This document shows positions 13,487 through 34,400 of a DNA stretch of 64,000 nt, one piece after another (position 1 is the stretch's first letter; every line of letters starts with the position of its first letter). The notes beneath the pieces were generated by a model that worked only from the letters and a program-made list of their open reading frames with translations, did no database searches and had not been told where the DNA came from. The stretch spans positions 1-64,000 of the forward strand of contig DASTMB010000074.1 in NCBI GenBank assembly GCA_035714365.1. The letters run 5' to 3'. Source of the stretch: Mycobacteriales bacterium (GTDB taxonomy: Bacteria > Actinomycetota > Actinomycetes > BP-191). The position numbers and the translations under genes were made by a program.

Positions 13487-13490
13487 TTCG

Positions 13491-13562
13491 TGGGCGATAG
13501 TGGTGTCGAACCACTGGCCTCTACCGTGTCAAGGTAGCGCTCTCCCGCTGAGCTAATCGCCC
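13491..13562 (-). tRNA. tRNA-Val (anticodon GAC)
   Basis: A 72-nt cloverleaf on the minus strand: acceptor GGGCGAT paired with ATCGCCC, anticodon stem CTACC/GGTAG with loop TTGACAC (anticodon GAC), T loop TTCGACA and discriminator A. It lies 1 nt downstream of tRNA-Cys and is likely co-transcribed with it. CCA is not encoded. Confidence 0.95.
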
Positions 13563-13563
13563 G

Positions 13564-13635
13564 AGGCGGAGGCGAGAATCGAACTCGCGTACAGGGCTTT
13601 GCAGGCCCTTGCCTAAGCCACTCGGCCACTCCGCC
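13564..13635 (-). tRNA. tRNA-Cys (anticodon GCA)
   Basis: A 72-nt cloverleaf on the minus strand: acceptor GGCGGAG paired with CTCCGCC, anticodon loop CTGCAAA (anticodon GCA), T loop TTCGATT and discriminator U as expected for Cys. CCA is not encoded. A Cys-Val tRNA tandem is common in actinobacteria. Confidence 0.95.
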
Positions 13636-13976
13636 AGCTCGAGACCCGGAGGCCCCGCTTCGTACAACGACCCCCCGCGCGACGTGCGCCCGGGGGGCAT
13701 CTCGTACGGCGTGGAGTATGCCACAACGCCGCCCACCGCACCCTCCGCGGGCCGGCTGTCACGGTATCTGCGGCGACGCGCCGAAGGATTGCGGCCGGTC
13801 GAGCGTAAACCGGGCGTCGGACGAGGTGGACGACGGCTCCCGGCCCCTTTCGGGGTCCGGGACACCGTTGCCCGTCCTCGCCCGGCTGCCGCGCGGCGTG
13901 CCGTTACCGCGTGGAGGCAGGCCGGTCGCCAGGCCGCCCGGTCCCGAGGTGGGCGACAGGGAGGAGGTGTTGTGGA
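13636..13976 (+). other. 341-nt intergenic region upstream of the ACA-rich peptide gene
   Basis: No convincing gene. The left half must hold the minus-strand tRNA promoter. A strong hairpin is present at 13839-13861 (CCCGGCCCC / GGGGTCCGGG, loop TTT), about 115 nt before the peptide start, and could be a terminator or part of a structured leader. Just before the peptide gene is a GGAGGAGG ribosome-binding site (13961-13968). Confidence 0.5.
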
Positions 13977-14222
13977 ATGAAGGTCGTACGTGCTCTCGTG
14001 CTGGGCGGTGCGGTCGTCGCGGCGCTCGCCGCGACCCCGGCCAACGCTCAGACAGTGCCCGGTTGCGACACGGTGCAGACAGTGCCGTCGTCGATCGGTG
14101 TGACACTCGGTGTCACACTGGACTGCTCCGGCAGTGGCAGTGCGGTCTCCGTGGCGACAGTCCCTGGTTGCGAGCTGATCCAGACAGTCGCCAGCGAGAT
14201 CGCGACAGTGCCCTGCTCGTAG
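13977..14222 (+). CDS. Small secreted Cys-containing peptide rich in ACA codons
   Basis: An 81-residue peptide: Sec signal (about 1-24, ending ATPANA) and a mature part of 57 residues with four Cys and an imperfect internal repeat ([Q/A]TVPGC[D/E]...QTV at residues 25-36 and 60-71). Its codon use is striking: seven of nine Thr codons are ACA (codons 26, 35, 43, 47, 61, 70, 77), against almost none in neighbouring genes. The signal-peptide Thr is ACC and codon 32 is ACG. Most ACA codons are followed by a Val codon. Two in-frame stops (TAGTAG) end it, followed 11 nt later by a hairpin. It lies upstream of the operon with an unusual aminoacyl-tRNA synthetase and tRNA, so ACA here may specify something other than Thr (inference). 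Confidence 0.8.
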   Translation: MKVVRALVLGGAVVAALAATPANAQTVPGCDTVQTVPSSIGVTLGVTLDCSGSGSAVSVATVPGCELIQTVASEIATVPCS

Positions 14223-14486: not shown

Positions 14487-15650
14487 ATGAGCACCGCCAC
14501 GCCCACGCTGCCCCGGACCCCCCGGCCCGGCGCGCGCGACGATGTCGAGGCGATGATCGGCGACACGCCGCTCGTCCGGCTGCGCCGGATGTTCCCGGCC
14601 GACGGTCCGGCCGTCTACCTCAAGCTCGAGCAGTTCAACCCGGGCGGCAGCGTCAAGGACCGCACCGCGCTCGGCATCATCCGCCACGCCGAGGAGACCG
14701 GCGTGCTGCGGCCCGGCATGACGATCGTGGAGAGCTCGTCCGGCAACACCGCGATCGGGCTGTCGCTGCTCGCGCAGTCGCGCGGCTACCACGTCGTCGC
14801 GATCTGCGACCGGCACCTGCCGGCGGTCAAGCGGGCGCGGCTGCGCGCGTTCGGCGCCGACGTCGTGTTCCTGCCGGACACGCCGCCGGGCATGGACACC
14901 GTGCAGCTGCGCATCCGTCTCGCCGAGCACCTGGCGAACGTGCTCCCGGACGCGGTGACGCTCGGCCAGTACTCGAGCCCGGGCAACGCGCGGATCCACT
15001 ACGAGACCACCGGCGCCGAGATCTGGCGCGACACCGGCGGGCATGTGTCCGCCCTCGTCGCCGCGGTCGGCACCTGCGGCACGATCACCGGCGCCGGGCG
15101 GTACCTGAAGGAGCGCGACCCGTCGGTCTCCGTCGTCGGCGTGGAGCCGGTGGGCTCGGTCGTGTTCGGCGGCGACCACGGGACCTACCTCGTCCAGGGC
15201 GGCGGCCTCAGCTTCGTGCCGAGCATCTTCGACGGCGGCGTCGTCGACACCGGCATCAAGGTCGACGACGCGACGACGTTCGGCTGCGTGCGCGACACGG
15301 CGTTGCGCGAGGGGTGGCTGCTCGGCGGCACCGGCGGGCTGGTCGTCGCCGGCATCCAGCGGATCGCCGAGCGGTACGGCCCGGACGACACCGTCGTCGG
15401 GATCGTCGCGGACTCGGGGGACCGGTACGTCGAGACGCTGTTCGACGAGGACTGGATGGCGGGCCACGCGGCCGGCGCCGCGCCGGTGTCCGCGTGGGCG
15501 GCCCACCCGGCGACCGCCGCGCTGACGCAGGCGCTCGGCTGCAGCGTCAACGCCGTCCCGGCCGACCCGGGGCCGGCGCTCGCGGAGTTCTGCCACACGA
15601 TCGGGTTCGACCCGGCCGGGCTGCCGGTGCCGCCGGAGGGTGCCGCGTGA
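14487..15650 (+). CDS. PLP-dependent beta-substitution enzyme (cysteine synthase / SbnA-like)
   Basis: A 387-residue fold-type II PLP enzyme of the O-acetylserine sulfhydrylase family. The Schiff-base Lys is K57 in NPGGSVKDR; the substrate loop is ESSSGNTAIG and the PLP phosphate loop GTCGTITGAG. It carries a C-terminal extension of about 60 residues (AHPATAALTQALGC...) absent from ordinary CysK. The long forms I know include SbnA, which joins O-phosphoserine to glutamate on the way to 2,3-diaminopropionate, and related enzymes in antibiotic clusters. No SbnB-type dehydrogenase is next to it. It is the first enzyme gene of a five-gene operon and most likely makes a beta-substituted alanine. 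The exact nucleophile cannot be read from the sequence. Confidence 0.8.
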   Translation: MSTATPTLPRTPRPGARDDVEAMIGDTPLVRLRRMFPADGPAVYLKLEQFNPGGSVKDRTALGIIRHAEETGVLRPGMTIVESSSGNTAIGLSLLAQSRGYHVVAICDRHLPAVKRARLRAFGADVVFLPDTPPGMDTVQLRIRLAEHLANVLPDAVTLGQYSSPGNARIHYETTGAEIWRDTGGHVSALVAAVGTCGTITGAGRYLKERDPSVSVVGVEPVGSVVFGGDHGTYLVQGGGLSFVPSIFDGGVVDTGIKVDDATTFGCVRDTALREGWLLGGTGGLVVAGIQRIAERYGPDDTVVGIVADSGDRYVETLFDEDWMAGHAAGAAPVSAWAAHPATAALTQALGCSVNAVPADPGPALAEFCHTIGFDPAGLPVPPEGAA

Positions 15651-16804
15651 GCGGGTACCTCCTCCTCCACTACGACGAGTTCCACACGCCGCTCGGGCTC
15701 GTCTCGCCGCTGCTCACCGGCGACGGCCCGCGCGTCGTGCTGCACGTCCGCGTCGACGACGCCGACGACGGCGGCGCGGCGCCCGCCGAGGGCTGGGTGC
15801 GGGAGCACGTCGACGCGCGGGACGAGTTCGCCGCCGGGTACCTCACCCGCGCGGTCAAGGCGAACGCCGTGTACGAGGGCGGCTACTACCTCTCCGCCGC
15901 GCTGTCCCGCCCGCTGCTCGCCGCGGTGTGCGCGCGCTCGCTGCGCGAGCGCGGCATCGGCGTGCTGGTCCACGGCTTCGCCGGCAACGACCAGCTCCGC
16001 TTCGAGATGGCGGTGCAGGCGCTCGCGCCGGAGACGACGATCGTGTCGGTCGCCAGCCTGCTCGGCAGCCAGAACGACCGCAACGGCGACGGCTACACCG
16101 TCAGCACCAACCTCTGGGGCCGCAGCGTCGAGGCCGGCCCGCTCGCCGACCCCGCGACCCGCCCGCCCGCCGAGGTGTTCGAGCGCGCCGGGGCGGGGTT
16201 CGCCACCGACGTGCCCGCCGCGCTGCACACGGTGTCGTTCGAGCGAGGCGTGCCGGTGGCGTTCGACGGCGTCGCGAGCGGGCTGCCGGACCTGCTGCGC
16301 CGGGTGGAGGCGGCCGCGCGGCCGCACGGCTTCGGCTACACCGACCTGGTCGAGGACGGCGCGATCGCGCTGAAGACCCGTGCGGTCTACGAGTCGCCCG
16401 CCGCGATCGTGCTCGTCGCCGCGCACCGCGACCTGGAGCGCCTCGTCGCGACGCGCGCGCAGAACCGGTTCAAGGCGCTGGTCGACCAGGCGTGGGCCGA
16501 GCTGGTCTACGACGGCTACTGGTTCGACGCGCAGCGGGAGAGCCTGGACGCGTACGTCGACAGCGTGAACCGCTGGGTCACCGGCGACGTCGACCTGCTG
16601 TTCCGGCCCGGCGGCGTGCACGTCGTCGGCCGCCGGTCCCCGCACGGCCTCTACGGCGAGGCCGAGTCCATCTACCGCTTCGGCCAGGACTTCGGCGCGC
16701 GCGAGGCGACCGCGGTCGCCTCCTCGCTGTCGGCCCACATGCGCGCGTCGGTCCGGCGCGGCGCCACCGCACGAGAGAACGGGAACCCCCGATGGAACGC
16801 CTGA
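15647..16804 (+). CDS. Argininosuccinate synthase-like protein lacking the ATP P-loop
   Basis: A 385-residue relative of argininosuccinate synthase, starting with a GTG that overlaps the previous stop (GTGA). Matches along the family are clear: VDARDEF, AVKANAVYEGGYYLSAALSRPLL, GNDQLRFEM, STNLWGRSVEAGPL, FERGVPVAFDG, LKTRAVYESPAA and VVGRRSPHGLYGE. What is missing is the N-terminal PP-loop that binds ATP (SGGLDTS in the family); here the start reads LLLHYDEFHTPLG. The HG.TGKGND loop is shortened to HGFAGND. So ATP-driven adenylation may be lost or altered while the citrulline/aspartate binding fold is kept. In the operon it may act on a ureido or guanidino intermediate. This is inference. Confidence 0.8.
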   Translation: MSGYLLLHYDEFHTPLGLVSPLLTGDGPRVVLHVRVDDADDGGAAPAEGWVREHVDARDEFAAGYLTRAVKANAVYEGGYYLSAALSRPLLAAVCARSLRERGIGVLVHGFAGNDQLRFEMAVQALAPETTIVSVASLLGSQNDRNGDGYTVSTNLWGRSVEAGPLADPATRPPAEVFERAGAGFATDVPAALHTVSFERGVPVAFDGVASGLPDLLRRVEAAARPHGFGYTDLVEDGAIALKTRAVYESPAAIVLVAAHRDLERLVATRAQNRFKALVDQAWAELVYDGYWFDAQRESLDAYVDSVNRWVTGDVDLLFRPGGVHVVGRRSPHGLYGEAESIYRFGQDFGAREATAVASSLSAHMRASVRRGATARENGNPRWNA

Positions 16805-17589
16805 TGTGCCCTCCGACGTACTTCGACGTCGAGTACAGCATCAACCCCTGGATGGACGTCGCGGTGCCGGTGGACAAGGCGCTCGCGGCCGACCAGTGGC
16901 AGCACCTCTACGACACGCTGGTCGAGCTCGGCGACACGATCCACCTGGTGGACGCGGCGCCGGGGCTGCCGGACATGACGTTCTCCGGCGACGCCGGGAT
17001 GGTGTGGCAGCGGACGTTCGTGCCGAGCAACTTCCGCCACCCGGAGCGGCAGGGCGAGGTCGCGCACTACCTGCCGTGGTTCGAGGCGAACGGCTACGCG
17101 ATCCGGCCGATGCCGGACGACGTGGTGTTCGAGGGCCTCGGCGACGTGGTGTTCCACAACGCGCGCGCGTTCGTCGGCCACGGCATCCGCTCCGACGAGC
17201 GGGCGATCGAGGTGCTCGGCGAGGTCGTGCCGCGGCTCGAGGTGCTCGGCTCGCTGGAGATCGTCGACGACCACTACTTCCACCTCGCGATGGCGCTCGG
17301 GTTCGTCGACGACGACACGGTCGTCTACTACCCGCCGGCGTTCACGCCCGAGTCCGAGGTCGTGATCCAGAAGGCGGTCGCGAACGCGATCCCGGTCTCG
17401 GCGGAGGACGCGAACACGTTCTTCGCCTGCAACAACCTCGTCATCGGCGACACCGTCCTCATCGACGACTGCACGCCGGCGCTGCGCGAGGACCTCGGTG
17501 CGTACGGCTACCGCGTCCGCACCGTCCCCATGTCGGAGTTCAAGAAGAGCGGCGGGTCGCTGCGGTGCCTCGTCCTCAGCTTCATGTGA
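16792..17589 (+). CDS. Arginine deiminase/amidinotransferase-fold enzyme (DDAH-like)
   Basis: A 265-residue member of the guanidine-modifying superfamily (DDAH, arginine deiminase, amidinotransferase). It begins with the family signature CPPTYFDVEYSINPWMD, has FSGDAGMV (acidic substrate-binding region), DDHYFHLAMALGF with the catalytic His, and ends with GGSLRCLVLSF, where the Cys is the expected nucleophile. Both hydrolysis of a methylated or plain guanidine and amidino transfer are possible. The ATG at 16792 overlaps the previous gene by 13 nt; an ATG at 16804 (TGATG overlap) is an equally good start and gives MCPPTYF. It is probably used to make or trim the guanidine/ureido group of the operon's product. 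Confidence 0.85.
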   Translation: MERLMCPPTYFDVEYSINPWMDVAVPVDKALAADQWQHLYDTLVELGDTIHLVDAAPGLPDMTFSGDAGMVWQRTFVPSNFRHPERQGEVAHYLPWFEANGYAIRPMPDDVVFEGLGDVVFHNARAFVGHGIRSDERAIEVLGEVVPRLEVLGSLEIVDDHYFHLAMALGFVDDDTVVYYPPAFTPESEVVIQKAVANAIPVSAEDANTFFACNNLVIGDTVLIDDCTPALREDLGAYGYRVRTVPMSEFKKSGGSLRCLVLSFM

Positions 17590-17619
17590 CGGCGCGCTAG
17601 CGCAGGGAGGGCGGGCACG

Positions 17620-19311
17620 ATGAAGGTCCTGGGGGTCAACGCGGTCTACCACGAGACGTCGGCGGCGCTCGTCGTCGACGGCGAGGTCGTGGCCGCGGTC
17701 GAGGAGGAGCGGTTCAACCGGCGCAAGCACGGCGCGGAGGCCCGCGTCGACAACGCCGACGAGCTGCCGCTGGAGTCGATCCGCTACTGCCTCGGCGCGG
17801 CCGGCGTGACGGCGGCCGAGCTCGACGCGGTCTGCTACTCGTTCGACCCGGCGGCACGCCGGCGGCGCAACCAGCTCGACCCGTACGCGGTGCCGGGGAG
17901 CTGGGGCAGCCTCGACGGCGAGGCGGCGTTCCTCGCCGGCCTGGGCCGCGTCGAGCGGGCGCTGTCGGACGCGCTCGGCGAGCCGGTCGGCGACCGGCTG
18001 CGCTGGGTCCCGCACCACCTCGCGCACGCCGCGTCGAGCTACTACGCGTCGCCGTTCGACGAGGCCGCGATCCTCGTCGCCGACGGCATCGGCGAGTACG
18101 ACTCGACGCTGCTCGCGTACGGCTCGGGCGGGCGGATCACGCCGGTGCGGACGTTCTCGTTCCCGGATTCGCTCGGCTTCCTCTGGGAGCGGCTCAGCGC
18201 GTTCCTCGGCTTCTCCGAGTACGACGCCTGCAAGGTCATGGGCCTGGCCGGCTACGGCGACCCGCGGCGGTACGAGGACCTCATGGCGAAGATCGTGCGC
18301 GTCGAGCCGGGGGCGTTCGCGGTCGACGACAACATCACGCAGTTCCGGCAGCCGGTGTCGGAGGAGCTGGCCCGGCTGTTCGGCCCGCTGCCGTCGCGCA
18401 TCGGCCGGGTGCACGAGGACGTCGCCGCCGCGCTCCAGCACGCCACGAACGAGATCGTGCTCTCGCTCGCCCGCAGCCTCTACGACGCCCGTCCCACGCG
18501 CGGCCTCTGCCTCGCCGGCGGCGTGGCGCTGAACTGCACCGCGAACTGGGTGCTCAAGGAGAACGGCCCGCACGAGGAGGTCTACGTCCCGAGCGCGCCG
18601 CACGACGCGGGCACCGCGGTCGGCGCGGCCCTGCACGAGTACCACCGGGTCCGCCCGCGGGACGCGGTGCGGGTGCGGGCCGGCGCGTCGCCGTACACCG
18701 GCCCGGAGTTCGGCGACGCGGAGGTCCTCGCGGCCGTCGAGCGGCACGGGCTGACGGCGGCCCGGCTCGACGACGCGCCGGCCGAGGCGGCCCGGCGGAT
18801 CGCCGCGGGCGAGGTCGTCGGCTGGTTCCAGGGCCGCATGGAGTTCGGCCCGCGCGCGCTCGGCAACCGCTCGCTGCTCGCCGACCCGCGCGACCCGTAC
18901 ATGCGCGACAAGCTCAACGTGAAGGTCAAGCACCGCGAGCCGTTCCGGCCGTTCGCGCCCAGTGTGCTCGCCGAGCGGGCCGCGGAGTGGCTCGAGCTGG
19001 GCCGCCCGTCGGACAGCTACGAGTACATGCTCTACGCCTGCCCGGTGCGCGAGGAGGTCGCCGACCGGATCCCCGCCGTCCTCCACGTCGACGGCACGGC
19101 GCGGGTGCAGCTCGTGACGGCCGGGAGCAACGCGCGGTACCACGCGCTGATCTCGGCGTTCCACGCGCTGACCGGCGTGCCGGTCGTGCTGAACACGTCG
19201 TTCAACGACTCCGAGCCGATCGTCTGCACGCCGGACGACGCGATCGCGACGTTCCTCAAGACCGACATCGACGCGCTGTTCCTCGGCGACCACCTGGTGA
19301 CGAAGCGATGA
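17620..19311 (+). CDS. NodU/CmcH-type O-carbamoyltransferase
   Basis: A 563-residue carbamoyltransferase of the NodU/TobZ family, about the usual length. The N-terminal ATP-grasping half begins MKVLGVNAVYHETSAAL and has VPHHLAHAASSYYASPF with the catalytic His pair and VADGIGEYDST. The C-terminal YrdC-related half has GWFQGRMEFGPRALGNRS and KHREPFRPFAPSV. Family members use carbamoyl phosphate and ATP to carbamoylate a hydroxyl (antibiotics, Nod factors). A GGGAGGG ribosome-binding site precedes the ATG. In this operon it may carbamoylate the side chain of the amino acid intermediate or of the final product. All motifs appear intact. Confidence 0.9.
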   Translation: MKVLGVNAVYHETSAALVVDGEVVAAVEEERFNRRKHGAEARVDNADELPLESIRYCLGAAGVTAAELDAVCYSFDPAARRRRNQLDPYAVPGSWGSLDGEAAFLAGLGRVERALSDALGEPVGDRLRWVPHHLAHAASSYYASPFDEAAILVADGIGEYDSTLLAYGSGGRITPVRTFSFPDSLGFLWERLSAFLGFSEYDACKVMGLAGYGDPRRYEDLMAKIVRVEPGAFAVDDNITQFRQPVSEELARLFGPLPSRIGRVHEDVAAALQHATNEIVLSLARSLYDARPTRGLCLAGGVALNCTANWVLKENGPHEEVYVPSAPHDAGTAVGAALHEYHRVRPRDAVRVRAGASPYTGPEFGDAEVLAAVERHGLTAARLDDAPAEAARRIAAGEVVGWFQGRMEFGPRALGNRSLLADPRDPYMRDKLNVKVKHREPFRPFAPSVLAERAAEWLELGRPSDSYEYMLYACPVREEVADRIPAVLHVDGTARVQLVTAGSNARYHALISAFHALTGVPVVLNTSFNDSEPIVCTPDDAIATFLKTDIDALFLGDHLVTKR

Positions 19312-20945
19312 CGACCAGCGCGGAGCGGCCGGTGCTCGCCGCCGCGACGGAGTTCGCCGACCACGGGTGGGTCGACTCCGTCGCCGCGGCCGAGGGCCGC
19401 TTCGTGCTGCGCAACGCGCGCGGTCGCTGGGACGTGCGCTGCGACGGTGGCGGTCCGGCCGCCGCGCTCACGCGGCTGCGGCCCGAGTCGGCGGTCGAGG
19501 TGAGCGGCCGGCTGGAGCCGGGGGAGGGCGGCGCGGCCGTCGTCCGCTGCGCGCGCCTCGACGTGCGCAACCTCGCGGAGCCGCTGCCGTTCACCCCGGC
19601 CACCCGCGAGGCGGCGCCCGCCGACGTGCGCGCGCGGTACCGGTACCTGGAGCTCCGCGACGACGCGGTGCGCGAGCTGCTCGTCGCCCGGCACCGCGCG
19701 GTGCACGCGCTGTCCTGCCACCTGGCCGACCTCGGCTTCGTCTCCGTCGAGACGCCCCTGCTGGCCGTGCCGTCCGGGAGCGGCGCGCGGGAGTTCACCG
19801 TGCGCGGCACCGGCGACGTCGAGTACGCGCTGCCGCAGTCGGCGCAGGTCTACGGCCACCTGCTCGTCGCCGGCGGCGTCGAGCGGTACTACCAGCTCTC
19901 CCGGTGCTTCCGCGACGAGGACCTCCGCGCCAACCGGCAGCCGGAGTTCACCCAGCTCCACCTGGAGCAGGCGTTCGCGACGACCGACGACGTCGTGCGG
20001 GTCGTCGAGGGGGCGGTGGTGGCGGCGTTCGCGGCGTGCGGGCGCCCGGTCGCGACACCGTTCCCGCGGCTCACCTACGACGACTGCGTCGCGCGCTACG
20101 GCACCGACACCCCGGACCTGCGGCACGAGCCGCTGTTCCGCGTGCTGCCGTGCCGGCTCGACCGCCGCCGGGAGGGGCCGGCCGACCTGTTCTCGGTCGC
20201 GCCCGCCGACGGCGTGGAGCTCACCGCCGACGACTGGGCGGCCGTCGCGCGCGCAGGCGACCGCGCCGGCTGCCGGCTCGCCGGCTACGCGCCGGCCGGC
20301 GCGCCGGACCCGGACGAGGCGGCGCTGGCGTTCCCCGCGCTGCGCGTGGCGCTCGACCTCGCCGACGCGCCGTTCCCCGGCTGCGTCGCGGTCCTCGCCG
20401 GGCCGGCCGCCCGTGCCGCGAAGGTGTGCCGCGCGGTCTACACCGCCTCGCTCGCGCACCCGGCGCCCGGCGGGCCGCGGCCGGCCTGGGTCACGGCGTT
20501 CCCGATGTTCGAGGCGGACGCCGCGGCGCCCGCCGGCGTCGCCGCGGCGAACAACCCGTTCGTCGCGCCGCTGGACGAGGCGGCGTTCCGGGCCGCCCGC
20601 AAGAAGGTGGAGCTGCTCGCGCTGCGCGGGGCGTCGTTCGACCTCGTCGTCGACGGCGTCGAGCTGGGCAGCGGCTCCGTCGTCAACCACCGGCCCGAGG
20701 TGCAGGAGCGGGTGCTCCAGCTCCTCGGGATGCCGCGCGAGGAGGTGCGCCGGCTGGGCTTCCTGCTCGAGGCGCTGCGGTACGGCGCGCCGCCCGTCGC
20801 CGGCTTCGGGCTCGGCGTCGACCGGCTCGTCGCCGCGATCACCGGCGCGCCCGGCATCCGCGACGTCATCGCGTTCCCCAAGACCAAGACCGGCCGCTGC
20901 CCGATGACCGGCGGCGCGGAGAGGGGAGGTGGCGGGCCGAGCTGA
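19308..20945 (+). CDS. Aspartyl-tRNA synthetase paralogue with altered substrate pocket
   Basis: A 545-residue class II aminoacyl-tRNA synthetase of the bacterial AspRS type, its ATG overlapping the previous stop (ATGA). Order: divergent OB-fold (about 15-95), motif 1, motif 2 (RCFRDEDLRANRQPEFTQL), a shortened GAD-like insertion and motif 3 (GFGLGVDRL). Set against E. coli AspRS by eye, ATP-binding residues are kept but residues that read Asp are not: the Lys at 198 is Gly183 (QSAQVYG), Arg489 is Val459 (GSGSVVNH), Asp233 is His (QLHLE), and the HH pair of HHPF is NN (N415-N416). Loss of both cationic residues argues for a neutral or basic substrate. The tRNA-like gene 17 nt downstream is the likely partner. 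Codon 250 (20055-20057) is an ACA. Confidence 0.85.
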   Translation: MTTSAERPVLAAATEFADHGWVDSVAAAEGRFVLRNARGRWDVRCDGGGPAAALTRLRPESAVEVSGRLEPGEGGAAVVRCARLDVRNLAEPLPFTPATREAAPADVRARYRYLELRDDAVRELLVARHRAVHALSCHLADLGFVSVETPLLAVPSGSGAREFTVRGTGDVEYALPQSAQVYGHLLVAGGVERYYQLSRCFRDEDLRANRQPEFTQLHLEQAFATTDDVVRVVEGAVVAAFAACGRPVATPFPRLTYDDCVARYGTDTPDLRHEPLFRVLPCRLDRRREGPADLFSVAPADGVELTADDWAAVARAGDRAGCRLAGYAPAGAPDPDEAALAFPALRVALDLADAPFPGCVAVLAGPAARAAKVCRAVYTASLAHPAPGGPRPAWVTAFPMFEADAAAPAGVAAANNPFVAPLDEAAFRAARKKVELLALRGASFDLVVDGVELGSGSVVNHRPEVQERVLQLLGMPREEVRRLGFLLEALRYGAPPVAGFGLGVDRLVAAITGAPGIRDVIAFPKTKTGRCPMTGGAERGGGGPS

Positions 20946-20962: not shown

Positions 20963-21210
20963 ACCGGAGTGGCGGAACTGGGAAACGCACAGGTCTTGTA
21001 AACCTGCCGCTCGGCATCGGTCGCCGACACGGTGACGACACGTCCTCCGGTGCCCTATGACCGGTGGACCGGCCACGACGGATCAGCATCCGACCGGGCG
21101 GCCTCGGCCGGGCCGTCCGTTGCTGAGGTCGGGTGTCCGTCCACGGCCCTTGTCACCGTCAGGCTGCTGAGACCCGGGCCTTGGGGGTTCGAATCCCCTC
21201 TCCGGTGCCA
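20963..21210 (+). tRNA. tRNA-like RNA, anticodon UGU, with a 176-nt insertion before the T arm
   Basis: The 5' part is a clean tRNA: acceptor ACCGGAG (20963-20969), D arm with stem GCG/CGC, anticodon stem CAGGT/ACCTG (20990-20994, 21002-21006) and loop CTTGTAA, giving anticodon UGU for ACA codons. The 3' part is also clean: T arm with loop TTCGAAT (21183-21199), acceptor CTCCGGT (21200-21206, perfect 7 bp), discriminator G and encoded CCA. Between them lie 176 nt (21007-21182) instead of a normal variable loop. These can form a long rod: 21019-21025 with 21162-21174, 21029-21036 with 21152-21159 (8 bp), and 21037-21041 with 21133-21137. G73 is an AspRS identity base and A1-U72 is unusual for tRNA-Thr. 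It is either a giant variable arm or an insertion removed later. Confidence 0.7.
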
Positions 21211-21354: not shown

Positions 21355-21531
21355 ATGAACGCACGGACGCTGCGGCTGCGCCGCGAGGCGCTGCACGAGC
21401 TCACCACCGTCGAGCTCGGCCGGGTACAGGGCGCGGGGGTCGTCGACACGACAACCTGCCAGACCACCGAGCTGCTCACGCCGTTCATCGCGACCGGACA
21501 GTCGCAGGACACAACCTGCACGTCGTTCTAG
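21355..21531 (+). CDS. Leader-peptide (RiPP precursor-like) gene 1 with two ACA codons
   Basis: A 58-residue peptide with a charged leader (ARTLRLRREALHELTTVELG) like the leaders of class I lanthipeptide-type and other ribosomal natural-product precursors, then AGVV and a 28-residue core rich in Thr with two Cys. Only two Thr codons are ACA, codons 33 and 53 (21451-21453, 21511-21513), each one codon before a T-C pair. The paralogue downstream has ACA at codon 33 too and again in an Asp-ACA-x-Cys setting, though the cores differ. GGGAGGG lies before the ATG. No lanthionine synthetase or exporter is near, so leader processing must come from elsewhere. The core may receive the amino acid made by the upstream operon (inference). 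Confidence 0.75.
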   Translation: MNARTLRLRREALHELTTVELGRVQGAGVVDTTTCQTTELLTPFIATGQSQDTTCTSF

Positions 21532-21782: not shown

Positions 21783-21959
21783 ATGCAGGCACGCACGCTG
21801 CGGCTGCGGCGGGAGGCGCTGCACGAGCTCACGAGCGAGGAGCTCGGCTCGATCCTCCGCGCGGGCGCCGTCGGCAGCACACCGACGGACACGCTCACCA
21901 CGTCGATCGTCGTCGGGCCGCTCACGCTCGACACACGGTGCGCAACCTCGGTGGGCTGA
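21783..21959 (+). CDS. Leader-peptide (RiPP precursor-like) gene 2 with two ACA codons
   Basis: A 58-residue paralogue of the gene at 21355. The leader (ARTLRLRREALHELTSEELG) is nearly the same; the core differs (AGAVGSTPTDTLTTSIVV...LDTRCATSVG) and has one Cys. The only ACA Thr codons are codon 33 (21879-21881) and codon 51 (21933-21935), the first at the same codon number as in paralogue 1 and the second again as Asp-ACA-x-Cys. Other Thr codons are ACC or ACG. Keeping the ACA codon at fixed places while the surrounding residues change suggests the codon itself, not just Thr, is under selection. GGAGGGAGG precedes the ATG. Confidence 0.75.
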   Translation: MQARTLRLRREALHELTSEELGSILRAGAVGSTPTDTLTTSIVVGPLTLDTRCATSVG

Positions 21960-22108: not shown

Positions 22109-22318
22109 TCAGTCGCAGGCCCAGGGCTTCCAGGTCGGGTCCGGGACGCCGATGTGCTGCCCGGCGACGTCGATGCCGATCAGCTCCGGCGGCGTGCAGC
22201 AGGGGCCGGGCTCGCCCTCGGCGGGCGGGTTGCAGGCCAGCGCGGGCGCGGTGGCGAACGGCGCGGCGGCGAGGCCGGCGGCCAGCGCGAGCGCGGTGGC
22301 GAGACGGCGGCCGGTCAC
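22109..22318 (-). CDS. Small secreted Cys-rich peptide coupled to a leader peptide
   Basis: A 69-residue exported peptide: signal (RRLATALALAAGLAAAPFATAPALA, about 1-28) and a mature part of about 40 residues with four Cys (ACNPP...GPCCTPP...PWACD). The GTG start overlaps the stop of the upstream leader-peptide gene (GTGA), so translation is likely coupled. It has no ACA codon. The pairing of a cytosolic leader-type peptide with a Sec-exported Cys-rich peptide occurs again on the other strand at 22628-22998. Its function is unknown; a two-component peptide system is one possibility. Confidence 0.6.
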   Translation of the reverse strand: MTGRRLATALALAAGLAAAPFATAPALACNPPAEGEPGPCCTPPELIGIDVAGQHIGVPDPTWKPWACD

Positions 22319-22485
22319 GAGCAGGCCACGTCGAGGCTGAGCAGGCAGCGCAGGCCGGTGACCGGCGTCGTGATGCACGGGTCGGTGAGGCAGACCTGGG
22401 TGTTCAGGCCGGCGCCGCCGACCTGGCCCAGCTCCTCGCCGGTGAGCTCGGCGAGCAGCTCCTTGCGGAGGGTGAGGGTGCGCAT
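22315..22485 (-). CDS. Leader-peptide (RiPP precursor-like) gene 3
   Basis: A 56-residue peptide with leader MRTLTLRKELLAELTGEELGQVGG, the double-Gly type ending common for exported bacteriocin-like precursors, and a core with four Cys and several Thr (NTQVCLTDPCITTPVTGLRCLLSLDVAC). It is related to the ACA peptides in the leader pattern (L.LR.E.L.ELT..EL) but all its Thr codons are ACC or ACG. Its stop overlaps the start of the secreted peptide gene that follows. No modification enzyme lies next to it. Confidence 0.65.
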   Translation of the reverse strand: MRTLTLRKELLAELTGEELGQVGGAGLNTQVCLTDPCITTPVTGLRCLLSLDVACS

Positions 22486-22842: not shown

Positions 22843-22998
22843 ATGAAGCGCACCCTGTCGCTCCGCAAGGAGACGCTCGCCGAGCTCACCGCCGGCGAGC
22901 TCGCGTCGGTCGCCGGCGGCGTCACGACCGTGGGCCCGAAGTGCCTGCCGGAGACGCTGACGTTCTGCCCCGACTTCTACTGCACGGGCACGGTCTAG
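22843..22998 (+). CDS. Leader-peptide (RiPP precursor-like) gene 4
   Basis: A 51-residue peptide with leader MKRTLSLRKETLAELTAGEL followed by ASVAGG, a clear double-Gly end, and a 25-residue core with three Cys (KCLP, FCPD, YCTG). The leader type matches precursors of lanthipeptide-like natural products. It begins 2 nt after the secreted peptide gene and its stop overlaps the end of the convergent methyltransferase gene by 4 nt. No maturation enzyme apart from that methyltransferase is near. It has no ACA codon. Confidence 0.65.
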   Translation: MKRTLSLRKETLAELTAGELASVAGGVTTVGPKCLPETLTFCPDFYCTGTV

Positions 22999-25490: not shown

Positions 25491-28400
25491 TCATGCCGCG
25501 AGCGCGTAGTTCTCGACGGCGGTGTACGCCGCCGCCGCCATGGCCATCACGGCGGCGGCCTCCTCGATCGCGACCACCGTCGCGGCGGCTGCCGCGAGCG
25601 CCTCGACCGCGACGACGGCGACCGCCGCGACCGCCGCGACCGCGACCACCACGCCGACCGCGACGAGCGTCACCATCATCGGATTCTCCCACCAGGCGCC
25701 GGCGAAGCTGAGCGGCAGCGGCTCGGTCGTCATCCACTGCGGGGACGGGTTCGGCCACGGCTCGCTCTTCGGCTGGCTGAAGTCCATGTACGGGCTCTCC
25801 TCGGCCGGCTTCTGGACCTCACCCGGCATCGGCGTCTTCCGCACCAGGCTCTCCCGGTACTTCTTCGCGCGTTCGTCGTCGACGTAGTTGTAGTACCGCG
25901 CGCCGCTCGGGGCCGCGGACGGCGGCGACACGACGTAGAACGTGCCCTTCCCGACGCGGAGCTGCGACGTCGGGAGCCACTGACCCGGCGAAGCCTGCTG
26001 GCCGCGGAGCTGGAACTCCTTGACGAACCGCTTCGCGTCCCGCTCCGCGGTGCGCCGGCCGTACTCGTTGTAGGGCTTGACCTCCCAGACGTAGTAGTGG
26101 CCGTTGTAGAGCAGCACGATGTCCGGCCGCGGACCCCAGTTGCGGTTGTTCTCCTTGCCGGGGACGAGCGACTTCAGCCGGCAGCCGCGCAGGATGCCGA
26201 TGTCGCGGTCGAACCCGGGGACGGCCGCGCAGAGCTGCGCGCCCTTCGGCAGCGACGCCTGGATCGTCAGCGCGGTGAGGAACACCGCCGCGTCGTGCGC
26301 CTCGGAGCTGCCCTTCGCGTCGGGGATCGGCCCGTCCAGCGGCCGGCCGTGCGGGGCGCCGTCGGAGCCCATCATGCTGAGCCAGTACGTCATCGCCGCG
26401 CACTCGTCGCCGCCGTCGTCGCAGCCCGGCCGGTGCCCGTCGGGGTCGACGAGGTTCAGCGGGTCGCCGTTGACGTACGAGTAGACGTTCCGGGTCAACG
26501 GGTCGTTGCCGACCGAGCCCTTCCCGTCCGGAGCGCTCGTGCGCACGGTGTCCTGCGTGTTGAACGACGCGCGGGCGGGGTCGTAGGTGCGCGACCCCAT
26601 CTGGTAGGTGCCGGTGGTGGCGTCGCGGCGGGCGCCGTGGAACAGCAGCGACGTCGGCGTCGAGCCGGTGGAGCAGGCGTTGGTGGCGCTCTGCCCGCCG
26701 ATCGGGGAGCCGAACGGGTCGTACCGCAGCGAGCAGGCGACCGTCGCCGAGCTCGTCGGCAGCGTCGTGCTGACGGAGCCGCGGGCGTCGTCGGTCAGGT
26801 ACTGCGGCTGCGAGCCGGTCCGCGCCACCGCGGTCGCCACGCCGTCCGGACGGAGCGCGTAGTCGATCGCGCCGCCGCTCGGCGTGGTCTCCTGGGCGAG
26901 CGTCTTGCTCGCCCCGTCGTAGTACAGCGTGGTCGTGCCGGGCGTCGTGGCGCCCGCGCCGGACTCGGTGCGGGTGGTCTGCCGGTCGAAGCCGTCGTAC
27001 GTGTACGCGGTCGTCGACGGCGTCCCGCAGCCGGTGACGGTCTTGACCGTCGCGGTGAGCTGGCGGTCGAAGCCGTCGTACGTGTTCGTCGTGCACTCGT
27101 CGCCGAGCAGCGCGCCGGACGGCGAGTACGTCGAGTGCCGCACCGGCGCCGCGGCGTTCGCCCGGCTCGTGTCGATGCTGTCGTCGGCGTTGTACGTGAA
27201 CCGCGCCGGGTCGGCCGCGGGGCCGTAGGACAGCCGGTTGCCGTCGTGGTCCCACGTCAGCTCGCGGTCGCCCTGCCGGTCCTTGAACTGCGACAGCCGG
27301 CCCGCCGGGTTGTAGCCGAAGCACTGCAGCCCGGTGGGCAGCAGTGACGGCGACTGCGCGCAGTCGAGCGACGGCGAGGTGCTGGTGCCCTGGTTCGCGG
27401 CCACGACGCGGCCGAGACCGTCGTACTGGTAGTCCCAGCGGGAGAGGACGGCGGACGCCGCCCCCGACAGCGTCTGCGACGCCACCGTGTCGTCGGGGTT
27501 GTAGACCCGCGACAGCGCCGCGCCGTTGGGCAGCGAGACGCCCGCGAGCCGGCCGGCGACGTCGTACGACCACGACTGGGTGCCGCCGGCAACCACGTCG
27601 GAGGTGAGCGACGCGAGCTGCCCGCCGTTGCCGTAGGTGTTCGTCGTCAGCACCCGGGCTCCGGTCGCGTCGACGACGTCGGCGCGCGCCACGCGAGCAC
27701 CCGAGCCGTCGTAGGCGAACTGCACGGTCCGCCCGCGCTCGCTGACCGTGCGGGGCGTCCCGTCGAGGTAGAACGTCGCGGTCGTCGTGACCGGCGACCC
27801 GCTCGCCGGCGTGTTCACGACCGAGACCGCGTGCCCCGCCGGGTCGTACGTGTAGGCGATGCTGTCCTGGCCGTTGTGGCCGCTCTGCGTCGCCATCCGG
27901 TCGTCGTCGTAGTACGTGAAGCGCGCGGTGCCCGACGACGCCGTGACGGTGCCGGACGAGTTGCGCATCACGGACAGCTCCGACGACTTGCGGCCGGCGT
28001 TGTCGTAGCCGTACGTCGTGCGCCGCGTGACGGAGCCGTCGGCGGTGAACGGGGTGGTACGGGTCTGGAGCAGGTTGTCGAGCGTGTACGTGTTGACCAC
28101 GGCGACGCCGTTGACGTTGGACGCGTCGTGCGCGTTGGCCGACGGCGACGTCGTCGTCGTGAGGTTGCCGACGGCGTCGTAGGCGTACGTCGTGTGGTCG
28201 CGCGCCGGGTCGGTCGCGCTGGTGCCGGTGCCGTAGACGTCCTTGCGCAGGCCGTCCGTGTAGTAGGACGCCGTGCTCACCCGCACGATCGGCGTCGCCG
28301 GCTGCGGGTCGACCGGGGCGTGGTTGAGCCAGGTCTTGAGCTCGACCGGCTTGCCGTTCGCGTCGTGCCGGTACTCGGTGAAGTGGTTCACCGTCGCCGT

Positions 28401-31400
28401 CGACGTGGGCTCGCCCGCCTTCGACGCGACGAGGCCGTCCGCCGTGTACGTGGTGACGTCCTGGTGGCCCAGGGCGTCCACCGTCTTCACGACCCGCCCG
28501 CTGCCGTCGTACTGGTACGTCGCCGTCACCTGCCGGCCGGTGCCGGTCGGCTGGCTCGGGTCGGGGGAGTTGACCGTGAGCGGCTTGTTGTCGTCGGTGT
28601 AGGTGGTGAGGACGTAGCGGTTGTCGGCGTTGTTCGACGTCGGCAACGTCACCTTCGTGCGGTTGCCGACGAAGTCGTACGCGTAGCGGATCACGCAGAC
28701 GCCGACGTTGCCCGGGTACGCGGGCACCCCGGTGACCGCGTCCGGCGTGGCGCCGGTCGGGCACTGCGAGGTCTGCGTCGTGCTGAGCCCCGGGTCGCTC
28801 GCGGAGGACGCGTCGTAGCGCGGGCTCCACGCCCGGATCACGCGGCCGTCGGCGTCGACGTCGGAGCGCGTCATGAAGCGCGGGTCGGGCGTCGTGGTCG
28901 ACGTCGCGAACGCGCGCGGCTCGAACTGCGCCGTGACGCGGCCCTCGCTGTCGTACATGACCCGGGTGCGGATGTTGCGCCCGCCCTGGGCGTCGGTGAG
29001 GCCGGCCGACTCCGCGAACTTCGACGACGACGCCTGGACGGTGTCGACCACGCGGTTGTCGGCGTCGTACGAGTAGGCCGTGATGCGGCCGAGCGTCCGC
29101 GTGCCGGGGTAGCTCGGGTTGTCCAGGTAGAACGGGGTGTCGGTGTCGATGCGGATGTAGCCGCTGTCGCCGTAGCCGCCCGCGGCCGGCCCGCTGCCGC
29201 CCGCGCCGCCCGTCGCGTAGACGCTGCCGAGGCTGAGGTTCGGCGCGGTGATCCACACGCCGCCACCGGAGCCGCCGCCGCCGGAGCCGCCGCCGCTGCC
29301 GCCGACGCCGGCCGTGATGGAGGTGCCGGCCGCGCCGTCGGCCGAGATCCGGCCCTCGTTGTCGAGCTGGTTGGCGGTGATGTGGATGAAACCGCCGCCC
29401 GCGCCGCCGGCGCCGCCCGGGTTGGTACCGCCCGCGCCGCCGCCGCCACCGCCGGAGCCGAGGTCGGTCGTGTTGCCGGCGTTGAGGTCGGCGGAGCCGT
29501 ACGCGGCGCCGCCGGACCCGCCCGCGCCGCCGCCGGTGGCGGTCGCGCCGTAGCTGCCCGAGTACCGGTGCCCGGCACCGCCACCGCCGCCGCCGTTCAC
29601 CGCGCCCGGCGAGCCGCCGTGGCCCGGACCCTGGCCCTGGCCGTCCGGCGCGGCGACCGTGAGCGACGTGCCGCCCGCGGCACCGGGCAGGCCGCGGCCG
29701 TCCGCGTTGATCCGGCACGAGTAGCAGACGCTGACGGTGCCGGTGGCCTTGATGTCCAGGCGGCCGCCGCCGCTGGTGTACGGCACCGCCACGACGTACG
29801 CGCCGTTGACCAGCGTGAGGTTCCGGAAGTTCTTGCCCGTGGGCATGACGTACGGGTTGCTCGCGCCGTAGACGTTGCCGTCGATGGTGAGGTCGCCGTC
29901 GGCGCCGGTGCCGAGGTCGACCGCGCCGGGACGCAGCACCGACCTGACGTTGCCGACCGAGTCGTACGTGTAGCGCGTGACGTTGGTGACGCCGGTCTCG
30001 CGCGGGACGGACTGCGTCAGCAGCCGGTTGTTGAGGTCGTACGTCGAGGTGGTGGTGGTGCCCTTGGCGTCGGTGCTCGACGTGACGTTGCCGTCGCGGT
30101 CGTAGGAGACGCTCGACGTGAGCGGGGTGCTCGCGTCGCGGTACGTCGTGGTCGTGCGCGCGCGCCCGGCCTCGTCGTACGTCGTGTGCGTGGCGTACGG
30201 GTCGCCGGCCGCGCACGTCGTGGCGCCGCCCTCCGCGAAGCTGCGCGGCGGGCAGGTGCGCAGGACGTTGCCGTCGGCGTCGTACACGGTGTCGGTGCGC
30301 AGCGTCGTCAGGACACCGTCGTAGCGCGGCGCGTCGGTGCGCACCAGCCGGTGCACGGCGTCGTAGCGCAGCGTCGTCACCTGCGCGTCGGCGTCGGTCT
30401 TCGACACGACGTTGTCGACGCCGTCGAACGACTGGAGGTTCGAGCAGACCAGGCGGCCCGCCGGCAACGGCGCGTCGGCCGTCGTCGTCGCGGTCGCGCG
30501 GCAGCCCGGCGGGCGCTGGGCCGGGTCCGTCGGGAACGGCCCGCGGGTGAAGCTCGTGGACACGACGCGGTTGACCGCGTCGTACGACGACACCGTGACC
30601 GAGCCGTTCGGGTCGGTCTTCGACGTCCGGTTGTCGAACGCGTCGTACGTGTAGCTCGTCTGCTTCCCGGCGGCGGCGCTGACGGGGGTCGCGGTCGTGA
30701 GCGGGTTGTTGTTCTTGTCGTACGTCGCGACGACGTCGTAGCTCGTCGAGTTCGCGGTGACGCCGCGCGGCGGGGTCACGCGTTCGGAGTTGCCGTTGCG
30801 GTCGACCTGCGTCTTCGTCCGGTTGCCGATCGGGTCGGCGGCCTCGGTGACGTAGCGCCACGGGTTCGACAGCGAGCCGCGGATCGACTCCGCGTAGCCG
30901 CCCGAGCAGCACGACGACCACGTGGTGGCGGTGCCATAGGTCTGCCTGCGGTCCCAGGTGCGCGCGATGTTGCCCGCCCGGTCGTAGCTGTAGGCGATGA
31001 AGTGGTCGACACCCTGGTAGTCGGACGGGTTGGACGTCGGGTCCGACACCGTCTTCAGCCACCCGCCGGCGGACGTGTTGCCGCTGAGGTCGCGCTCGGT
31101 GTCGCTGTAGTACTGGTACACGTACCTGCCGTACGTCGAGAACCAGTACGTGGTCGCCGTCGACTGCGGCGTGCGCATCGTGACGCGCTGCCCGTAGTCG
31201 TCGTAGGTGTAGTCGGTGAGGGCGGTCGTCGTGCCGTTGAACGGCTCGGTCTTGCTGCAGAGCACGCCGGTGTTGCGCGCGGTGCAGGCGCTGCCCGGGG
31301 CGGTGGTGTTCGGTGCCGTGCCGACGGCGTTGGCCGGGGCGAACGTCGTGCGGTAGTTCGCGAACGACGCGCCCGCGGCGTTGCCGCGCGGCGTCACGGA

Positions 31401-34400
31401 CGCCGTCTGGTCGGTGATGACGTAGATCACCGACAGGCTCTGCGTCGCGTCCGGGCGCGCGGTCGACGTGACGACGCCGCCGGCACCCGGGGTGTCCGTG
31501 GCGGTCTGCGTCGTGCCGTCGGCCTTCACGTACTGCGCGGTGAAGCCGAACGTCGTGTCGAGCGACGCGGGGGAGCCGCCGGTGTTGGCGCGGCGGGCGG
31601 CGAGGAGGTTCCCCTCGTCGTCGTAGAGGAAGTTCGTCACCTCGTCGGGCGTGCTCGCGGTGAACGAGCTGCGGGTGACGCGGCAGACGTTGTTGTCGCC
31701 GGTGGTGGCGGGCTGTCGGCAGCCGGCGGTGTCCCACGTCTTCTGCGTCGAGTGCAGGTAGACGTCCGAGGTCGAGCCCTCGTCGATCTGGCCGACGCGG
31801 CCGGCGGAGTCGAGGCCCTGGTACCGCGTGCGGTGCGTGCCGGTGTCGGCGGTGACGTAGTCGGGCGACGCGAAGTAGGTGATCGTGGACACGGTCCCGT
31901 TGCGGTCGGTGATGCCGGTGACGCGCTTCGGGCCGAGCGTCGCCGGACCGTACGCGAACCGCGACGTGTACCCGCGCGCGTCGGTGACCGAGCAGAGCTG
32001 CCCGGTGCTGGTCGTGGTGGACCCGTCGCAGTTGTCGCCGAAGCCGTCGTAGGTGTACGTGACGTGGTCGCTCGCGACCGCGCCCGAGGTCTCCGGCGGG
32101 TTGACGACCTTGACGAGGTGCTGCGGCGTCGCCGTGTCCAGCTGGTAGCTCGTCACCCGGCCGGCCGGGTCGGTGACGCGCACCTCGGTCGACGACGGGT
32201 AGGCGATCGACAGCTTGCGGCAGGCCGCGACGAGCGACTGCGCGCAGGTCGTGGAGCTGTTGTAGACCGGGCGCAGCGTCGGCTCGAAGACCGTCGTCAG
32301 GCGCCCGAGCGTCGCGCCGGCCAGCGGCAGCGACTCGTACTGGTACCGCAGCTCGACACCGCTCGGGTCGACCACGCTCAGCAGGCGGCCGTTCCACGAG
32401 TACTCGGTGCGCAGCCGGTCCGGCCGCATCGCGGCGAAGCCGAGCACGACGCCCGTCGAGACGCCGCCGCAGCCGGCCGACGAGACGCCGACGTACCGCC
32501 ACAGCGACAGGTGCACGCCCGCGGGGGCCGTATAGGTGCCGTCGACGCAGACGTTGGTGTGCTTCGTGATGTCCAGCGCCTTGGGCAGCAGCGTCCCGAT
32601 CGCGCTGGTCGAGGTCAGCGAGCTCAGCGAGATCGGCGTCGCGAGCGACTTGAAGCGGAACAGGTGCCGGGTGCCGTCGCGGTCCACCAGCGTCACCGCG
32701 AGCGGCGACGTCACGCCCTGCGCGCTCGGCACGGACAGACCGGTGGCGCCGATCCCGAGCCCGCCGAGGTCGTCGACCTGGCCGAGGTTGAGCTGCCAGC
32801 CGGCGCCGATGCCCGCACCGGGCAGCGCGAGCACGCCGGTGTCCTGGCTGTTGTAGGTGCGCCGCACGCCGTAGGAGAGCCGGCCGTGCGCCTGCACCGG
32901 GGTCGAGTCGTTGGCGCTGACGACCAGGTTGCCGTTCGCGACGTTGACGCTCGCGAGCGACTCGGCCGCGACCTGCTCGGCCGCGTAGGACCACCAGTCC
33001 TCGAGGCCCAGCGCCGTGTCGCACACGGTCATGGTGACCGCCGACGTGGAGGCGCCGAACGAGTTCACGGCGCGCGCGGCGTTGGTCGCCGTCGAGCAGA
33101 CGCGGTCGACGCCGGCCGCGACCGCCTTGTAGACGATGTCCCTCGCCCCGAGCCCGGGCACGGTGAAGCTGCCGACGTTGAGCGTCGTCCCCGTGAACGA
33201 GCAGACGGTGCAGGCGGCGCCGTCGATCGTCATCGGGGTGCCGGTCGCGACCAGGCCGGCCGGCACCGCGTCCGTGATGCTGTCGACGACCATCGACGTC
33301 GACGCCGGGTTGCTGACGTGCAGCGTGAACGTCAGCTCCTGGCCGCGGCCGTACGCCGCCGCCACCGGCGACACGCTCTTCACGAGCTGCGGCGCGGGCG
33401 ACAGCGTGACGGTGTTGGAGTTCGCCGACGGCGGGCCGTAGCCGACGCTGTTCGACGCCGTGACGGTCGCGTAGTAGCTGCCGTACGGAACGCTGCTGAA
33501 CGTCGTGGTGAGGCACGTGGCGCACGTCTTCGTGGTCGTCTCGCCGGTGACGGCGTTCCACAGCGTGATCTCGTAGCCGTCCACGGCCGGGCCGCCGTTC
33601 GCGGCCGGCGCCAGCCAGTCGACCTTCACCGACGTGTTCGTCGGGGTGGAGGCGACGACGTTGCGTGGCGCGCCGGGCGGCGGCGACCAGACGATGTCGA
33701 CCTTCGGCCGCTGGTCGGTGATCGGGTCGTTGGGGCCGGAGAACGACGGGCCGCCGATGTTGCCGGTGGCCGGCTCGGACGACAGCCGCTGGCCGATGCC
33801 GTAGTTCGGGTTCGCGGGGAAGAACCCGCTGACCACCCAGTCGTCGACCAGCGCCTTGATGTCGAACGCGATGGCCGTGCGGGTGCCGGGCGCGAACGCC
33901 GGGAGGTCGTAGTAGTACAGGACCGGCCCGGTGGCGGCGGTGGCGGAGATCTGCGTCCACGTGCTGTTGACGCTGTGGTTCTGGCGCAGCGGGTAGTACT
34001 GGATGCGGTAGTTGTGCTTGTCGCACTGGTACTGCGTCGCGTCGAAGCCGAAGCAGCCGTTCTGGAACAGCGTCATCTTGGCGCTGGTGACGAGCGAGTC
34101 CTCCGCGATCTGCGACGTGGAGAACTTGTAGAAGCTGCGCGCCGGGCGGGCGTCGATGTTCCAGACGGTGCCGACCTTCTCGGTCTGCGTCGCCGCGCCC
34201 ATGGCGTTCGGGTTCGTCGACGGCGGGACGTAGCCGATGCAGCCGCCGCGGGTGCCGCCGCAGGCGCTCTCGTGGCCGGAGCTGACCTGGCTGGTCACCC
34301 AGCTCGCGATCTGCGTGTTGCGGTACGCGACGCTCGGGTCCAGCACGACCGGGAACGACTTGTCCGCGAGCCAGTCCGCGTCGACGGACAGCGTCACGTC

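Follow-up and report, generated by a model that had tools for sequence, protein, structure and literature searches.

A cassette of amino-acid biosynthesis genes, an AspRS paralog and a giant-arm tRNA as a candidate natural genetic-code-expansion module reading ACA or UAG

The window analysed here, i.e., the whole stretch of 64,000 nucleotides, contains a compact cassette that quite probably is a natural genetic-code-expansion module, in which, as far as can be judged from sequence, an amino-acid pathway, an aminoacyl-tRNA synthetase (aaRS), a tRNA and dedicated peptides are brought together. It rather likely represents a third natural route to an encoded amino acid besides selenocysteine (Sec) and pyrrolysine (Pyl); this route would be portable, its anticodon being re-targeted to UAG in proteobacteria and to ACA in the host. 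Two relatives were found, in L100 (a MAG of Paraburkholderia sp. Vmac symbiont) and L101 (Breoghania corrubedonensis DSM 23382). The gene content and its conservation, the cloverleaf, the anticodons, the loss of Asp-recognition residues and the codon enrichments can be read directly from these DNAs. The features of the window cassette are the following.

13960–13969, + strand: strong Shine-Dalgarno sequence GGAGGAGGTG, 7 nt 5' of the ATG of the peptide ORF
13977–14222, + strand: secreted peptide of 81 aa with a Sec-type signal and seven ACA codons, the proposed dedicated substrate
14487–15650, + strand: PLP enzyme, SbnA/CysK-like, first gene of the operon (54% identity with L100, 47% with L101)
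15647–16804, + strand: argininosuccinate-synthase-like (ArgG-like) protein, whose N-terminal HUP domain is matched only from profile position 58
16792–17589, + strand: DDAH/arginine-deiminase-type enzyme (58–65% identity to L101/L100)
17620–19311, + strand: carbamoyltransferase (PF02543/PF16861; 52–56% identity to the L100/L101 copies)
19308–20945, + strand: AspRS paralog, class II core retained, Asp side-chain residues lost
20963–21210, + strand: tRNA with a giant variable arm, a G73 discriminator and an encoded CCA, anticodon UGU at 20997–20999
21007–21182, + strand: structured variable arm of this tRNA, 176 nt (z -4.4 versus shuffled sequence)
21355–21531, + strand: RiPP-like precursor of 58 aa whose two ACA codons both fall within the core (VVDT-X-TC...QD-X-TC)
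21783–21959, + strand: paralogous precursor of 58 aa with two ACA codons at matching core places (AVGS-X-...LD-X-RC)

The ORF 13977–14222 translates as MKVVRALVLGGAVVAALAATPANA followed by QTVPGCDTVQTVPSSIGVTLGVTLDCSGSGSAVSVATVPGCELIQTVASEIATVPCS and a stop codon; it comprises a signal peptide and a mature part of 57 residues. ACA accounts for seven of its nine Thr codons (positions 26, 35, 43, 47, 61, 70 and 77), the others being ACC at 20, within the signal peptide, and ACG at 32, a recount that agrees with the original prediction, made from this DNA alone, of seven ACA codons with exceptions in the signal peptide and at codon 32. The excess was also held to be far from chance, and this is borne out: against a background of 115 ACA among 16,616 Thr codons (0.69%, in ~1.25 Mb of host genome), its binomial probability is 2.7e-14, and none of the 569 host genes with at least seven Thr codons has an ACA share above 0.25. 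The five genes of the downstream operon use ACA for only 1/99 Thr codons, so that the bias is a property of the peptide and not of its neighbourhood.

The excess could alternatively be a by-product of duplication within a gene of recent or foreign origin and odd codon usage, the tRNA then being the relic of an amber-reading ancestor whose anticodon has drifted; we consider this quite unlikely. The internal repeat and the four cysteines noticed beforehand are indeed present, the former spanning 33 nt with 79% identity and a spacing of 105 nt. The seven ACAs are thus not fully independent events, and internal duplication could be the source of part of their excess. The raised frequencies of GGT (5/8 Gly) and AGT (2 Ser) codons, a GC3 of 0.77 and the orphan status of the gene would likewise fit such an origin. 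However, the A-ending codons GCA, CCA, GTA, GGA, TCA, CTA and CGA pooled represent 1/52 in this ORF, i.e., the bias towards A-ending codons is confined to Thr and does not reflect general A-richness. The repeat does not include two ACAs in VTL contexts, nor four core ACAs; every cloverleaf pair is kept in the tRNA, and it would be a coincidence if the anticodon had drifted to exactly the triplet complementary to the enriched codon. Between the repeat copies, the wobble positions of the flanking codons have diverged while ACA is unchanged.

Other causes of the excess were considered and rejected. CpG avoidance was discarded because many CpGs are left in the ORF, albeit with a low observed/expected ratio (1.00 vs 1.33), and because A-ending codons are increased for Thr alone. 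The mRNA structure is merely mildly unusual (z -2.3), and the further ACAGT clusters of the host genome sit in unrelated reading frames. No homologue of the peptide was detected, the only match with E <0.001 (in G014, L003) overlapping a TetR-type-regulator-like gene and being no true relative. Orthologues next to the same operon that use ACC or ACG had been named in advance as evidence to the contrary; no such gene came to light. The peptide itself has no Pfam or NCBIfam match, and it lacks a lanthipeptide leader, its signal being of Sec type.

The operon starts 265 bases 3' of the peptide ORF, on the same strand, and its five genes (14487–20945) overlap or are closely spaced. The SbnA-like, ArgG-like and DDAH-like enzymes together with the carbamoyltransferase would produce a free non-standard amino acid, hereafter X. 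A guess at its chemistry, derived from the enzyme families alone, is that X is probably neutral and perhaps a beta-substituted alanine of ureido, carbamoyl or guanidino type, an assignment made with low confidence. Several of the IMG/VR contigs L181–L191 also encode DDAH/arginine-deiminase-type enzymes, which are 31–38% identical to that of the cassette; no other cassette gene was seen beside them in the retrieved flanks.

The last gene of the operon encodes a protein with full-length homology to bacterial-type AspRS (E ~1e-112 with PDB 1efw). In a phylogenetic tree, it forms with its two relatives a single clade (100/100), with long branches, apart from 14 canonical AspRSs. The ATP-binding motifs are retained in these paralogs, and their amino-acid pocket was judged by sequence alignment. 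In the window protein, K198 is replaced by G, D233 by H, R489 by V and H448 by N (E. coli numbering). The same sites are changed in all three paralogs (K198 to G, D233 to H, H448 to N/N/C and R489 to V/V/L) and are invariant among the 14 canonical enzymes; in E. coli AspRS, these four residues bind the Asp substrate. None of the three paralogs thus has the K198, D233 and R489 expected of a functional AspRS, and, as these contacts with the Asp side chain are gone, Asp is unlikely to be their substrate. The simplest reading of the alignment is that an AspRS duplicate now takes another, uncharged amino acid.

The tRNA starts ~17–18 nt after the synthetase stop. Its 5' part reads ACCGGAG TG GCG...CGC A CAGGT-CTTGTAA-ACCTG and is followed by the 176-nt arm, beyond which the 3' part reads GGGGG-TTCGAAT-CCCCT CTCCGGT G CCA. 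A full cloverleaf can be drawn, with a 7-bp acceptor stem, a 5-bp T stem and an anticodon UGU complementary to ACA. The tRNA is not detected by ARAGORN or by an Rfam RF00005 scan because of its insert, and further cases may be hidden from tRNA finders for the same reason. The insert matches no Rfam family, neither a group I intron nor any other RNA already described there. The variable arms of the homologous tRNAs of L100 and L101 reach 207 nt and 210 nt; that of L100 folds better than shuffled sequence (z -3.6) whereas that of L101 does not (z -0.7). In all three tRNAs, 20/20 core pairs are formed, four of them with compensatory changes on both sides, and shifting the partners by 1–3 bases lowers the pairing to 35–55%. 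From this intact cloverleaf and its covarying stems, the element can be considered as a putative functional tRNA. The tRNA-Sec model gives it at best 20.5 bits for a gathering score of 47, and the tRNA-Sec fold, with its 13-bp acceptor domain, is absent.

All three giant-arm tRNAs retain G73, which is a major identity base of tRNA-Asp. Combined with the AspRS/AsnRS ancestry of the synthetase, this would suit an aaRS paralog that loads a canonical residue (e.g., Asn, Asp or Ser), the four enzymes making an unrelated small molecule; free-standing biosynthetic genes could indeed be adjacent by chance. We regard this as unlikely, as the same four enzymes accompany the aaRS and the tRNA in three unrelated genomes, and as the loss of all three contacts K198, D233 and R489 speaks against Asp itself. 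The preferred reading is that the AspRS-derived synthetase, with its remodelled pocket, would charge X onto the dedicated giant-arm tRNA.

The two 58-aa precursors that follow the tRNA occupy the place held in Breoghania by a TAG-rich gene. In both, one ACA codon stands at the fifth residue of the core, the other belonging to a D-ACA-x-C motif. ACA represents 4/18 core Thr codons in the two genes (P 6e-6), a weaker excess that is supporting only, because other A-ending codons are also mildly raised there. Two additional RiPP-like precursors (22315–22485, - strand, and 22843–22998, + strand) have LxLRKExLAELT..GG leaders and contain no ACA codon; the second clears the NCBIfam cut-off for class I lanthipeptide leaders. 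Aminoacyl-tRNA-dependent modification occurs in RiPP pathways, and these downstream RiPP-like precursors would agree with a tRNA acting off the ribosome as an amino-acid donor for PEARL/LanB-type chemistry, the codon bias then having another cause. This seems very unlikely: the scan of cassette and flanking genes revealed none of LanB/PEARL type, and the anticodon corresponds to the enriched codon (ACA in the window, UAG in Breoghania), a match that a ribosome-independent tRNA does not need. Moreover, the Breoghania ORF described below could be translated only with decoding of its 16 UAGs.

The relatives were retrieved by using the synthetase as a query against the genomes of 84,980 species; two matches, L100 and L101, stood clearly above ordinary AspRS. 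Both carry all five cassette genes (38–65% identity) and a homologous giant-arm tRNA located <=60 bases from the synthetase stop. A dedicated aaRS with a dedicated adjacent tRNA is thus found in 3/3 genomes, i.e., in the host and in two unrelated proteobacteria. Their tRNAs have the anticodon CUA, versus UGU in the window. In Breoghania, the next gene (L101:11937–12158) begins with ATG GCT CTT TAG ATG GTT TAG and consists of 73 codons, including 16 in-frame TAG, before terminating at TAA. It is preceded by a Shine-Dalgarno sequence, has no internal TAA or TGA, and its GC signature is coding-like in frame (0.75/0.44/0.70 against 0.65/0.46/0.80). Elsewhere in the 376-kb Breoghania contig, on which TAG is an ordinary stop in 30 of the 176 genes sampled, no ORF of similar TAG richness was found. 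The UAGs of the Breoghania ORF are always spaced by 3, 4, 5 or 8 residues, a pattern that might fit an amphipathic helix with these positions on one face. In L100, the gene in the equivalent position has the same start, MAL-TAG, and its whole product is MALXD*, five residues; this gene may have decayed or may really be that short.

A target enriched in the codon that matches the anticodon is therefore present in the window (7/9 ACA) and in Breoghania (16 TAG), whereas L100 has one TAG only, in its five-residue ORF. The original prediction had implied that ACA may encode something special in a secreted peptide, an idea to which the tRNA(UGU), the AspRS paralog and the amber-reading relatives, none of them named in it, lend support. 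Only three cassettes were found in total. None was added by the host class, the host phylum, the class of Breoghania or the family of Paraburkholderia (371–393 genomes sampled each), nor by plasmids and viral contigs; such cassettes are either rare or highly divergent.

The cassette lies near the probable edge of a genomic island, as deduced from a comparison with the sister genome G002:

13490–13635, - strand: tRNA-Val(GAC) and tRNA-Cys(GCA), just past which synteny with the sister genome stops

The sister genome carries different DNA at the place of the peptide. Past tRNA-Cys, it harbours unrelated small Cys-containing secreted peptides (L045 8624–8820 and 10133–10331, both - strand), which suggests that this site is a variable island spot collecting secreted peptide genes. 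A very long gene encoding a YD/RHS-repeat-like protein of 3256 aa (25491–35261, - strand) adjoins the island. The element L098 (G000:C88:14277–14350) resembles the 3' portion of a tRNA: its anticodon stem is intact and its loop carries TGT, but a matching 5' half is missing. It looks like the attachment-site remnant of a foreign tRNA-Thr(UGU).

Loss of the normal tRNA-Thr(UGU) is ruled out, as one is present in the host genome, which keeps ordinary tRNA-Thr with the anticodons UGU, GGU and CGU. At ACA, X would thus have to compete with Thr. U34 of the UGU anticodon could also wobble to ACG. ACA is among the rarest host codons (115/247,863), so that its capture would cost little and collateral damage would be limited; relative to the sister genome, ACA is not clearly more depleted across the genome than the other A-ending codons are.

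Taken as a whole, the proposed process would be as follows. Once the tRNA is charged, X would enter dedicated small peptides on the ribosome, at the codon that pairs with the tRNA anticodon. In the window, this codon would be ACA and the substrates would be the peptide 13977–14222 and probably also the precursors 21355–21531 and 21783–21959. UAG would be the codon read by the tRNA in the Paraburkholderia symbiont and in Breoghania, the Breoghania substrate being the 73-residue peptide with its 16 UAGs. We infer the charging with X, the non-canonical nature of X, its delivery by EF-Tu and its competition with tRNA-Thr(UGU); the outcome at ACA or UAG would depend on the conditions of expression, on how abundant the tRNAs are relative to one another or on the local context.

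To our knowledge, selenocysteine and pyrrolysine alone extend the set of twenty encoded amino acids in nature. If the reading is correct, the cassette would be a third, independently evolved system and would answer the question of whether more encoded amino acids exist. It would show the natural capture of a sense codon and indicate that an expanded code can be devoted to a handful of secreted peptides of its own instead of enzymes; a new orthogonal synthetase-tRNA pair would also be gained. As Breoghania corrubedonensis DSM 23382 is a named strain, the UAG version is directly testable. No description of the cassette was found in the open literature (preprints and most subscription papers being outside the coverage), and it looks like a genetic-code-expansion system of a kind not previously reported.

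The cassette shares features with several known systems. Its aaRS resembles the AspRS family by whole-length homology and ATP motifs, but forms a separate clade, has replaced Asp contacts and is associated with a non-Asp anticodon (UGU or CUA). The leaders of the downstream precursors are similar to those of lanthipeptide-type precursors (NF038153 leader, Mersacidin PF16934), whereas the peptide 13977–14222 has a Sec signal and its proposed special residue would be installed during translation, not after. Allo-tRNAs and other non-canonically built tRNAs are natural tRNAs outside the standard cloverleaf that are overlooked by ordinary gene finders (PMC7609411). Unlike them, the cassette tRNA has standard acceptor, anticodon and T arms, its oddity being the giant variable arm, and is co-located with an aaRS and a pathway. 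Natural tRNA-Sec homologues with different anticodons read UAG or sense codons across species, and these sense-codon variants are a precedent for re-targeted anticodons (PMC10778597). However, Sec is made on its tRNA from Ser and requires SelB and a SECIS, whereas the cassette has a dedicated aaRS; neither SelA/SelB nor SECIS was found among the cassette genes scanned. The pyrrolysine system is likewise a compact cassette, in which the biosynthesis genes of a free amino acid are combined with a class II aaRS and an odd tRNA, both dedicated, and the tRNA (CUA) of the proteobacterial cassettes would also read UAG, that of the window being UGU. It differs in that the aaRS of the present cassette matches AspRS models and structures, not PylRS, and that the SbnA-like, ArgG-like and DDAH-like enzymes and the carbamoyltransferase are not homologous to the pylB, pylC, pylD pathway. 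Furthermore, the tRNA arm of the cassette reaches 176–210 nt, its window version would read a sense codon, and its substrates would be dedicated small peptides instead of methyltransferases.
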